From the NCBI GenBank assembly GCA_018713285.1, contig DVFK01000065.1:1-44642 (forward strand): a stretch of DNA of 44,642 nt, written 5' to 3'. The notes below the pieces were generated by a model. The model had not been told where the DNA came from. It made no database searches and was given only the letters and a program-made list of their open reading frames with translations. Positions 9,784-31,280 of the stretch are shown here, piece by piece. Position 1 is the first letter of the stretch; each line of letters starts with the position of its first letter. The stretch is from Candidatus Faecousia excrementigallinarum (GTDB lineage Bacteria > Bacillota > Clostridia > Oscillospirales > Oscillospiraceae). The position numbers and the translations under genes are program-made.

Positions 9784-10905
9784 ATGACCCCAGCAGAGAG
9801 ATTTTTGAAGGTGCTGTCTTTTGAACAGCCGGACAGGATTCCTGTGTTCGATTTCGGCTACTGGCCGGAGACCATTACCCGGTGGTATCAGGAGGGGCTG
9901 CCCACACATTTGAAGACCTATGAGGAAATTGAGAGCTTCTTCAAGGGCGACCGGGGCTTTGAGCTGAACATGGTGAACCATTGGGGCCCGGCTGAGATGG
10001 AGGGCATCGAATGGGGCCCCTATCCTCCTCTGGAAAAGGTAGTCCTGGAGGAGGACGAGGAGACCATCCTCTACGGCGGCGAAATCGGCCTCATCCGGGA
10101 GCATAAGAAAACCGGCTCCATCTCCCAGACCCTCAAATACCCTATCGAAACTCTGGAGGACTTTGAAAAGAAGATCGTCCCCCGGATGAACGGAAGCGAC
10201 CAGGGCCGGGTGCCTGCGGGCTTTGATGAGAAAATCAAGCTGCTCCGCAGCCAGGGAGAGCCGGCGGGCGTCTGGCTGGACGGCTTTTTGGAGTATCCCC
10301 GGGAGCTGATTGGCATTGAGAACCTTTGCTATGCCTACTATGACGAACCGGAGCTGGTTCAGGGAATCAACGCCCAGCACCTGGAATTTATCAAGCAGTA
10401 TGTGGACATGGTGCTGACCCACACGCCTTTGGAATATGCCTGCATTGTGGAGGACATGGCGTATAAAAACGGCTCCATGATTTCCAAGGAGATTTTCGAC
10501 AGATTCATGCGGCCCTATTATGTGGAGCTGGTGTCCTTCCTCCGCAGCCGGAATATCCAGAAGATTCTGCTGGATTCCGACGGCTGCACCGTGGATATTA
10601 TTCCCTGGATGATTGATTTGGGCATCGACGGCCATTACCCCCTGGAGGTCATTGCCGGCTCCACCCCCCAGCTGCTCCGGGAGAAATTCCCCAAGTTTGC
10701 CCTCATTGGCGGTGTCAATAAATTTGCCCTGGAGAAAGGACCCAAAGCCATTGATGCGGAGTTGGAAGCCCTGTGCCCGGTGATCGAGAAGGGGGGCTAC
10801 ATCCCCAGCGTGGATCATAAGGTGCCGCCTACGGTGTCTTTGTATAATTACCAGTATTACATTGAAAAGAAAATGAGAATCCTGGAAAAATTCGCAGCAA
10901 AATAA
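9784..10905 (+). CDS. URO-D family protein, zinc-lacking type
   Basis: This 373-residue protein is a second URO-D superfamily member, placed last in the nucleoside-uptake operon 22 bp after a permease. It has the family start (RFLKVLSFEQPDRIP) and the C-terminal IPSVDHKVPPTVSLYN segment. Where its neighbour at 3876-4946 has HSCG, this one reads LDSDGCT, so the His-x-Cys metal pair is absent and the mechanism probably differs. Two divergent paralogs flanking a nucleoside importer suggest a shared but unknown reaction. Haem synthesis is unlikely given the context. GTGAGG serves as ribosome site. Confidence 0.8.
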   Translation: MTPAERFLKVLSFEQPDRIPVFDFGYWPETITRWYQEGLPTHLKTYEEIESFFKGDRGFELNMVNHWGPAEMEGIEWGPYPPLEKVVLEEDEETILYGGEIGLIREHKKTGSISQTLKYPIETLEDFEKKIVPRMNGSDQGRVPAGFDEKIKLLRSQGEPAGVWLDGFLEYPRELIGIENLCYAYYDEPELVQGINAQHLEFIKQYVDMVLTHTPLEYACIVEDMAYKNGSMISKEIFDRFMRPYYVELVSFLRSRNIQKILLDSDGCTVDIIPWMIDLGIDGHYPLEVIAGSTPQLLREKFPKFALIGGVNKFALEKGPKAIDAELEALCPVIEKGGYIPSVDHKVPPTVSLYNYQYYIEKKMRILEKFAAK

Positions 10906-25155: not shown

Positions 25156-25232
25156 GCGCCGGTAGCTCAGTTGGATAGAGTGACTGACTACGAATCAGTA
25201 GGTCGGGGGTTCGAGTCCCTTCCGGCGTACCA
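25156..25232 (+). tRNA. tRNA-Arg (anticodon ACG)
   Basis: The 77-nt sequence folds as a cloverleaf. Acceptor arm GCGCCGG pairs with CCGGCGT, the discriminator is A, and CCA is encoded. The anticodon loop CTACGAA gives ACG, which is normally deaminated to ICG to read CGU, CGC and CGA. The T loop is TTCGAGT. It has its own promoter and terminator and is followed by an unusual structured repeat that copies its 3' tail. Confidence 0.96.
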
Positions 25233-25267
25233 AAAGAGCGGATACCCAAAGGGTATCCGCTCTTTTG
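25231..25267 (+). terminator. tRNA-Arg terminator
   Basis: CAAAAGAGCGGATACCC pairs perfectly with 25251-25267 around an AAA loop. The T run comes from the 3' arm. Confidence 0.88.
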
Positions 25268-25280
25268 GTTTATGTGCCGC

Positions 25281-25391
25281 AAGGGACTCGAACAATCAAA
25301 TCCCACAGTCCACTGGACTGTGGGCGGCGCCGGTTAGACGGCGCCGAACCTCACAATTTGCCAAAGGCGAATTGCCCCGAGTCCCTTCCGG
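25281..25391 (+). repeat. tRNA-tail hairpin element A
   Basis: This non-coding element has five ordered parts. First, AAGGGACTCGAAC (25281-25293) is an inverted copy of tRNA-Arg 25209-25221. Second, after a spacer ending AAATCC, comes a 23-nt palindrome (25302-25324) with arms CCCACAGTCCA and TGGACTGTGGG. Third is hairpin CGGCGCC/GGCGCCG (25325-25346). Fourth, after AACCT, is hairpin CAATTTGCC/GGCGAATTG (25354-25374, one wobble). Last is CGAGTCCCTTCCGG (25378-25391), a direct copy of tRNA 25212-25225. The first and last parts pair with each other over 10 bp and would close a four-way junction. Element B at 30583-30708 has the same plan with its own tRNA's tail. ORFs across this region are spurious. 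Confidence 0.85.
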
Positions 25392-25526
25392 GCGGGCAGT
25401 GCCCGCAGCCAATTTCGCACGATATTTTTTTCAAATCGTTACTGTCCCTCCAAAGCCCGGTATCGTTACTTTGCGGAAATCGAATTGCCGCACCCAAACC
25501 GGGGGGATTCCGTTTTCCTACTGGTG
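25392..25526. other. Non-coding tail after element A
   Basis: No gene is seen. The stretch begins with hairpin GCGGGC/GCCCGC (25392-25406). Beyond it are a long T run, two CGTTACT copies and a loose inverted repeat using CGATA/TATCG and CAATT/AATTG. It may be remains of a larger element. Confidence 0.5.
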
Positions 25527-30455: not shown

Positions 30456-30544
30456 GGAGAGTTGTCCGAGTGGTTTAAGGAGCCGGTCTTGAAAACCGGT
30501 GATGCGGCAACGCACCGTGAGTTCGAATCTCACACTCTCCGCCA
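30456..30544 (+). tRNA. tRNA-Ser (anticodon UGA)
   Basis: The 89-nt class II tRNA has acceptor stem GGAGAGT/ACTCTCC, a long variable arm and encoded GCCA. The anticodon loop CTTGAAA gives UGA. A terminator and structured repeat B follow directly. Confidence 0.96.
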
Positions 30545-30581
30545 AAAATTGCCGACCCCCACAAGGGGGTCGGCAATTTTT
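30545..30581 (+). terminator. tRNA-Ser terminator
   Basis: AAAATTGCCGACCCCC pairs perfectly with 30565-30580 around ACAA, ending in five T residues. Confidence 0.92.
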
Positions 30582-30582
30582 A

Positions 30583-30708
30583 TCGGAGAGGAGATTCGAA
30601 AAGTTAAATCCGACAGTCCGGTGGACTGTCGGCGGGAGGCTCCTGCCTCCCGAACCTTTATTTTTGCAGCGAGCGCTGCAAAAATGCAATCGAATCTCCA
30701 CTCTCCGC
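30583..30708 (+). repeat. tRNA-tail hairpin element B
   Basis: The plan is that of element A (25281-25391). An inverted copy of the tRNA-Ser tail (CGGAGAGGAGATTCGAA, 30584-30600) is followed by a 5-nt spacer and AAATCC. Next are the palindrome CCGACAGTCC/GGACTGTCGG (30610-30632), hairpin CGGGAGGC/GCCTCCCG (30633-30652), AACCT, hairpin TTTTTGCAGC/GCTGCAAAAA (30661-30684), and a direct copy of the tRNA tail (TCGAATCTC, CA, CTCTCCGCC). The palindrome keeps ACAGTCC/GGACTGT while its flanking pair changes from C-G to G-C relative to element A, which is a compensatory change. The other two hairpins keep pairing with unrelated sequence. Confidence 0.85.
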
Positions 30709-30810
30709 CCGCCCCCAATCAAGCAGAATCTCTCATCCAACACTGCCTCCCTACACTCTCCAGCTCTCATTTTTCTGTAGTACATTTTCTGCATCCACTC
30801 TGACCAACTC

Positions 30811-31118: not shown

Positions 31119-31159
31119 GTATAATCCAAATCCGTGCCCCTTGGGGCACACCTTACTTC

Positions 31160-31246
31160 TTCACTATTCACTTTTACTTATTCCTTTCCAAAAATCGACC
31201 CCTCGATTTTAGTGAAGAGTGAATAGAGAATAGGGAATAAGTAAAA
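31160..31246. repeat. AT-rich nested inverted repeat downstream of tRNA-Gly
   Basis: TTTTACTTATTCC (31172-31184) is perfectly inverted at 31234-31246. Inside lies hairpin AAAATCGA/TCGATTTT (31191-31210), and TTCACTATTCAC (31160-31171) is loosely inverted near 31212-31226. The segment TCCAAAAATCGAC (31187-31199) repeats, in inverted orientation, the junction of the tRNA-Gly 3' end and its terminator. It is non-coding. Confidence 0.65.
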
Positions 31247-31280
31247 ATCGACAAGCCCCCAAAGGTGCTTGTCGATTTTT
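31243..31280 (-). terminator. tRNA-Gly terminator
   Basis: On the minus strand AAAAATCGACAAGC and GCTTGTCGATTTTT form a 14-bp stem directly after the CCA end. Confidence 0.88.

Follow-up and report, generated by a model that had tools for sequence, protein, structure and literature searches.

Two elements behind tRNA genes of Candidatus Faecousia excrementigallinarum raise the question of what kind of genetic object keeps its fold while its sequence changes. Both lie in the window, by which we mean the whole stretch of 44,642 nt analyzed here (GCA_018713285.1, contig DVFK01000065.1). An earlier note on this DNA had taken kept pairing as the mark of selection on RNA or on cruciform DNA structure. 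The explanation that we favor, and to which we give about an even chance, is that the elements (A and B) are small non-autonomous mobile DNA units, 'tRNA-tail cassettes', anchored on tRNA 3' ends. If right, they would form a new class of mobile DNA whose ends come from the RNA gene behind which it landed.

Anatomy and folding of elements A and B

Element B (30584-30707, + strand, as are all features given in this section) is located 3' of tRNA-Ser(tga) (30456-30544; called by ARAGORN and by the Rfam tRNA model) and of a terminator-like hairpin, T1 (30545-30581). Its predicted fold consists of a closing stem and three hairpins with an energy of -74.2 kcal/mol, against a mean of -35.4 for shuffled sequences (z -10.8). 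The closing stem is made from the tail of tRNA-Ser: the left arm (30584-30599) is the tail inverted and the right arm (30690-30709) is the tail in direct orientation, from T-loop to acceptor strand, an assignment based on the sequence and on own-tRNA tests of other copies. The stem has 10 pairs, a 2-nt bulge and then 6 pairs, and both arms carry short deletions relative to the real tRNA tail. Following the left arm are an unpaired junction AAAGTTAAAT (30600-30609), the AAAT part of which is kept across copies, hairpin 1 (CCGACAGTCC-GGT-GGACTGTCGG, 30610-30632, seen in the fold and the pair counts), hairpin 2 (CGGGAGGC-TCCT-GCCTCCCG, 30633-30652), an unpaired linker AACCTT (30653-30658) and hairpin 3 with 12 pairs (30659-30686).

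Element A (25277-25391; recognized by sequence, covariance model and fold) has the same layout 3' of tRNA-Arg(acg) (25156-25232, ARAGORN) and a T1 hairpin (25233-25267). Its hairpins 1, 2 and 3 span 25302-25324, 25325-25346 and 25354-25374, and its right arm starts at 25378. The element folds at -69.9 kcal/mol (z -9.4), and for neither A nor B did any of 200 shuffles fold as well. Most of what had been noted about this pair is present in the sequence: the common order, the TCGAA-5 nt-AAATCC spacing and the AACCT linker, the switch from C-G in A to G-C in B beside ACAGTCC/GGACTGT, and the origin of B's closing stem in tRNA-Ser, with both arms slightly diverged. Hairpins 2 and 3 indeed differ in sequence and still pair; 'fully paired' has to be read as including one T-G wobble in hairpin 3 of A.

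A covariance model built from 14 of the 18 distinct copies described below (A included, B excluded) has just two full-length matches in the window, one to A at 25283-25385 (99.8 bits) and one to B at 30591-30698 (88.8 bits). The same genome holds a third copy behind its Arg(ccg) tRNA gene. Two other repeats were seen nearby. A separate repeat (GGGCGGGCAGTGCCCGC ... CCCGGTATCGTTAC) at 25388-25480, after element A, is also inserted within the counterpart of element B in genome G135 (L190). A different inverted repeat of TTCACT/TATTCC-like strings is found at 31135-31275, behind tRNA-Gly(ccc); such strings also occur after other tRNAs of genomes G000 and G135. In locus L584 an inverted repeat of similar kind stands ahead of the PF05635 gene.

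Arms follow the neighboring tRNA

The match between arms and local tRNA extends well beyond A and B. In tRNA neighborhoods taken from five genomes of the genus, at least 14 of the 33 listed tRNA genes of G279 and at least 6 of 25 in G000 carry a unit, as read by eye from printed sequences. Among the listed genes of G195 (30) and G241 (25) no inverted tail match longer than 10 nt was found; Gln(ctg) of G195 shows a 10-nt inverted stretch without a core. A first test was applied to 13 G279 units chosen by reading, leaving out the Met unit and excluding the T-loop. Summed scores of arms against their own tRNA were 93.5 (left) and 162 (right), whereas the maxima of 20,000 permutations were 87 and 128; the own tRNA was best or tied best for 8/13 left and 12/13 right arms.

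A second, independent set consisted of 40 stretches around covariance-model matches, hand-picked from at least 102 so as not to overlap with the loci used before. Their sources are four additional genera of the family and, within the genus, new places in its three carriers. These stretches contain 51 matches, 38 of which have a tRNA upstream within 700 nt (30 within 80 nt), with shared orientation in 36 of the 38. The second test used 29 of the 30 first units (a reversed one was left out), all beginning 45-55 nt past the tRNA. Own-arm sums reached 238 for left and 369 for right arms, against permutation maxima of 181.5 and 232.5, so that none of 20,000 permutations attained the own-tRNA sum for either arm. 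The own tRNA was best or tied for 18/29 left and 27/29 right arms, and many right arms end in CCA. The 13 matches without a called tRNA comprise three at contig edges (L549, L574), two in gene-bearing arrays whose tRNA lies at a greater distance upstream (L545, L564), four preceded by a tRNA tail but no complete tRNA (L554, L578), one close to a contig end and preceded by another unit's tail (L552) and three apparent solo copies (L542, L553, L571).

That the two strands of the closing stem change together follows from their being copies of the neighboring tRNA, which the earlier note had half seen. The match of the arms with their own tRNA, over 18 anticodon types in the second set alone, is a stronger fact than the pairing.

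Some related structures deviate from this plan. At tRNA-Thr(ggt) of G000 (L234) a third architecture is present, in which the right arm copies the whole T arm and the left arm is an inverted copy of the region upstream of the T-loop. Behind two 5S rRNA genes, one in L193 (1-330) and one on the reverse strand of L130 (the latter gene recognized by eye), there is an ACAGTCC hairpin together with a copy of the 5S 3' tail; the tail copies have the same internal change in both places and are in tandem in L130. These 5S-linked versions lack an inverted arm, and a single genome among 295 of the order shows their junction pattern.

Distribution

Carriers recognized by the covariance model, with up to 13 candidates scored per genome, amount to at least 22 of 300 genomes of the taxonomic family, at least 13 of 106 genera and, within the genus, at least 3 of 6 genomes. 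Tandem units are common, and several arrays end in a shortened unit: by eye, the second unit ends early at a hairpin or arm in L374, L376, L377 and L387, and in several arrays the terminator hairpins T1 and T2 are identical or nearly so. Most units sit behind a terminator; the Arg(tct) unit lies within a tRNA operon with no terminator before it, as judged by eye.

In the family around genome G300 the ACAGTCC core recurs in a second architecture whose hairpins are arranged differently; sequence similarity (E 1e-6) detects it there in 19 of 250 genomes. In windows around its matches, which are a biased sample, 20 of 37 tRNA genes were flagged (21 in the raw count, which includes the first Arg(cct) of L380, flagged merely through the second tRNA gene that follows it). 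Among the matches listed in a scan of genome contigs, 17 of 87 cores with a 3-nt loop follow a tRNA end within 250 nt and none precedes a tRNA in this way, compared to 1.3% for random positions, and cores with other loops are near a tRNA in 0 of 40 cases. Records of the tRNA-near cores include Bacillota, Planctomycetota, Actinomycetota and Pseudomonadota; in a Burkholderiales record (L079) no tail copy was seen by eye. Viral contigs hold 84 loop-3 cores in 80 listed loci, and only that of L481 is near a tRNA.

Rfam 15 returned only tRNA and one 5S rRNA at gathering score; at a relaxed threshold weak sub-gathering matches appeared, none of which was taken as real. No paper describing such elements was found in the open-access literature searched. 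Within that literature and Rfam 15 the units are undescribed.

Signs of movement

Related cores recur at many tRNA species of one genome. By eye, the cores of G279 are near-identical at many different tRNAs while the arms differ, and cores differ between genomes. Near-identical copies are also present where no tRNA was found. L582 (G000) and L546 (G135) share a unit with 7 differences in 179 columns; the match runs from the CCA before the terminator to the CCA of the tail copy, and the alignment shows that the T1-type terminator hairpin is part of the shared unit. L546 adjoins tRNA-Leu(caa). In L582 the unit stands between a KilA-N gene and a PF05635 gene with no tRNA called within 5.8 kb upstream, and the tRNA may have been lost from that place. 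Similarly, 108 bases of L184, from left arm to right arm, are identical to the element that follows Arg(acg) in G279. The contig extends for 1.1 kb upstream of this copy and shows no tRNA there; the tRNA may lie beyond the contig end. Empty and occupied sites can be compared as well: G279 has a unit at Arg(acg) and none at Arg(ccg), with the same hairpin following both, and the Arg(tct)-His spacer is short and empty in G195 while it holds a unit in G000, G135 and G279. All these presumed events are read from one genome per species, mostly draft assemblies.

A unit comprises a terminator hairpin, the inverted tail of the preceding tRNA, a core of three hairpins with almost perfect pairing and the tail in direct orientation, in many cases with CCA at its end. 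Its place is immediately behind the CCA of a tRNA gene, which stays intact; units may be in tandem, and occasionally one or two genes are present upstream of the structured end. In the mobile-DNA explanation an enzyme supplied in trans would move the unit. This enzyme might act on a folded single strand, the closing stem of which would imitate the double-stranded end of a tRNA gene, though we consider this step doubtful. Through copying or template switching, the target would provide new sequence for the arms, either at insertion or later.

Pointing to mobility are the arms matched to the local tRNA, the genome-wise cores, the copies without tRNA, the tandem and gene-bearing arrays, the empty and occupied tRNA sites, the patchy distribution and the low number of G-T pairs reported below. 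Against it stand the shared orientation with the tRNA, as would be seen for a functional RNA, an excess of G-T over A-C pairs in one of our alignments, the absence of an inverted arm in the 5S-linked versions, the small number of gene-bearing arrays and a candidate mover that is limited to one hint, a weak recombinase-like fragment. We initially held this explanation for slightly more probable than an even chance; the estimate was lowered because the strand counts are mixed and a reversed array became doubtful. The latter, in L572, has two reversed copies at the end of a contig; the final 207 bases there match, in reverse complement, the beginning of a different contig. Given this ambiguous end and a possible assembly error, the reverse orientation was set aside as evidence for DNA.

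Gene-bearing arrays

Most units carry no gene, and only four gene-bearing arrays were found: L110 (the same place as L372), which was among the matches listed in a scan, and L583, L584 and L600, which come from 20 wider windows. In all of them the genes run in the direction of the tRNA and lie upstream of a unit. Behind tRNA-Ser in L110, two units enclose an ORF of 306 aa that belongs to no Pfam family and matches the phage-defence candidate PDC-S02 of PADLOC (E 1.8e-30). L584 shows, behind tRNA-Lys, a PF05635 protein and an ORF of 174 aa without family, followed by a unit with the Lys tail. In L583 two gene-less units follow tRNA-Met, and after these comes a PF04072 methyltransferase-like ORF. 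In L600 an HTH ORF is placed between the 3' part of tRNA-Tyr and a unit with the Tyr tail; this tRNA-Tyr part is a reading by eye, as ARAGORN calls only tRNA-Thr there. The two tRNAs (9990-10145) are apparently fused by deletion or misassembled. For the genes of L583, L584 and L600, PADLOC gave only generic HTH matches, for L600.

These arrays invite comparison with integrons. In a stronger version of the mobile-DNA explanation, which we regard as somewhat unlikely, tRNA genes of Clostridia would serve as anchors behind whose CCA a recombinase acting in trans captures folded single-stranded units and single genes, with the arms rewritten for each tRNA. The system would then be a gene-capturing array with tRNA genes as its platform, in which one cassette family has many landing sites and the captured genes include a phage-defence candidate. 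The likeness lies in a gene followed by a structured palindromic site, in arrays of one direction and in structure that is kept while sequence varies (for attC structure, PMC3053210). The units may work like attC sites. In contrast to integron cassettes, the units anchor on a tRNA gene, copy the local tRNA tail into their arms, have three hairpins and are mostly gene-less, and no integron integrase was seen in the ORF-listed stretches, apart from the weak fragment in L585 described below.

The attC sites of integrons have end motifs, RYYYAAC near one end and GTTRRRY near the other. Among 50 distinct units none has these motifs within 25 nt of the ends and one has both anywhere in order, so as attC sites proper the units fail this test.

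Core variation and the nature of the pairing

Pair changes were counted in type I copies. Of 27, 7 were left out, and the remaining 20 include 18 distinct ones. Over the arms and hairpin 1 of these 18 copies, 8 of 18 pairs show double changes; 97.5% of the cells are paired, with 29 double-change cells against 2 one-sided ones, which bears out the claim that pairing is kept while sequence changes. Shuffles yield 8.1 double-change cells on average and slid partners at most 4. On four of five measures 0 of 500 shuffles were as high (203 of 500 for the number of pair types), although the 8-nt right arm and hairpin 1 were placed by best complementarity, which leans towards pairing. In 50 distinct further copies, aligned by fitting to the model, 391 of 400 closing-stem cells and 486 of 500 hairpin-1 cells are Watson-Crick. 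Since most hairpin-1 pairs vary among these copies and nevertheless stay Watson-Crick, ACAGTCC is merely the commonest version of the core. The covariation is therefore strong, as the earlier note expected. Selection on RNA is not proved by it, because copying at the DNA level can produce it too: according to PMC8794818, DNA template switching can yield double changes, and such events are reported there in RNA genes.

Perfect hairpins and matching arms could have arisen through template switching alone, and it might be argued that no dedicated mobile element is involved. Terminator hairpins after tRNA genes would be fragile; replication slippage would duplicate tail and terminator, and template switching, including quasipalindrome correction, would make the hairpins perfect and copy the selectively fixed tRNA tail into both arms. 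The large surplus of double-change over one-sided cells agrees with this, as do the shortened second units, the near-identity of T1 and T2 and the fact that tail, T1 and inverted tail form one long fold-back. We consider this explanation unlikely, since related cores are found at many tRNAs and at places without tRNA, the boundary falls at the CCA, and gene-bearing arrays exist. Two further features stand against a purely copying origin. Unpaired junctions are conserved across copies, and a tandem G-A mismatch in hairpin 2, which correction would remove, is retained: a strict pattern finds it in 4 of 50 copies (two of them neighbors in one array), and by eye several G279 copies keep it between different flanking pairs.

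Another possibility, which we rate as quite improbable, is a structured RNA made with or behind the tRNA, with its pairing selected at the RNA level. It could be a small RNA that resembles a tRNA and ends in CCA, or one that regulates how tRNA 3' ends are processed. The strong folding, the covariation, the CCA-ended right arms, the fixed spacing and the orientation shared with the tRNA would all agree with such an RNA, and so would the Arg(tct) unit inside a tRNA operon. Its weak point is the scarcity of G-T pairs, which make up 17 of 827 pairs in the units (helices of 4 of the 27 type I copies, with hairpin 3 lost or different, were left out). In 95 tRNAs of the genus, by comparison, 104 of the 1140 pairs in acceptor and T stems are G-T (Fisher P 1.4e-11). 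This roughly fourfold difference fits pairing or copying at the DNA level better than selection on RNA. The evidence from strand counts is mixed. In the hand-framed set G-T and A-C pairs number 2 and 4 out of 360, whereas the fitted alignment of 50 copies has 12 G-T against 3 A-C; G-T pairs account for 51 of 1189 pairs when the folded strand is taken and 77 of 1215 for its complement, which gives clear support neither way. The patchy distribution, the copies without tRNA, the location of most units behind a terminator and the lack of an Rfam match also speak against an RNA. The units also provide a natural setting in which selection on structure can be separated from DNA-level copying as the cause of covariation, a matter of consequence wherever a new RNA is claimed on the strength of covariation.

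Candidate enzymes and comparison with known systems

The units are too small to encode a tyrosine integrase. Transposases of the RAYT type and reverse transcriptases were considered as movers and rejected, being absent from several unit-rich carriers. PF01797 was present in 12 of 33 genomes searched, with two genes in G000, and was not found in G279, G135, G104, G197 and G137, all of which are rich in copies. PF00078 was present in 2 of 15 genomes searched, the non-carrier G241 and the carrier G164, and was not found in G000, G279 and G135. Neither family seems needed, as both are missing from unit-rich genomes. It is very improbable that the units are ordinary REPs or REPINs spread by a REP-associated tyrosine (Y1/HUH) transposase. 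In favor, they are palindromic, multicopy and in part dispersed, ACAGTCC palindromes are found at a distance from tRNAs as well, and G000 has its two PF01797 genes. Against this, PF01797 was not found in the five copy-rich genomes named above, the units have the wrong size for a REP, as well as three hairpins, terminators and arms that match a tRNA, and the core palindrome itself differs among copies, which contradicts the ordinary REP that the earlier note had allowed for.

PF05635 genes are more frequent in carriers (11 of 14) than in family members without a model match (4 of 15; P 0.009, four genomes of another family not counted), and they lie in or beside two units (L584, L582). As a partner of the units the family is associated yet not required: it was not found in the carriers G197, G137 and G140, two of which are estimated to be 100% complete and hold at least 9 and at least 12 units. 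Proteins of this family are linked to the intervening sequences of 23S rRNA, which are inserted in structured RNA genes and have pairing ends. The units resemble these in their pairing ends at a structured RNA gene, in the PF05635 genes in or beside two units and in the enrichment in carriers, and differ in that no PF05635 gene was found in unit-rich G197 and G137.

A tyrosine-recombinase-like fragment was observed in L585 (3655-4140, - strand), 170 nt past a solo unit with a tRNA-Lys-like tail; it scores 26.7 bits with PF00589, below the cut-off of 27.1.

Elements that integrate into tRNA genes (ICEs, prophages, satellites) likewise insert at the tRNA 3' end, leave a direct tail copy at the far end and keep the tRNA whole. 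The units differ from them by a length of about 150-180 bp without an integrase, by the extra inverted tail and by related cores at many tRNA species. REP/REPIN sequences, Rickettsia palindromic elements (for both, PMC3733652) and MITEs are, like the units, short palindromic non-coding repeats; the units are set apart by a preferred site at tRNA 3' ends, arms that match the target, terminators, arrays with genes and carriers in which PF01797 was not found. A palindrome of another subtype comes closer to the Rickettsia elements: viral contig L461 has four such ACAGTCC palindromes (3051, 3933, 5104 and 6894), two of which are located in frame within long predicted ORFs.
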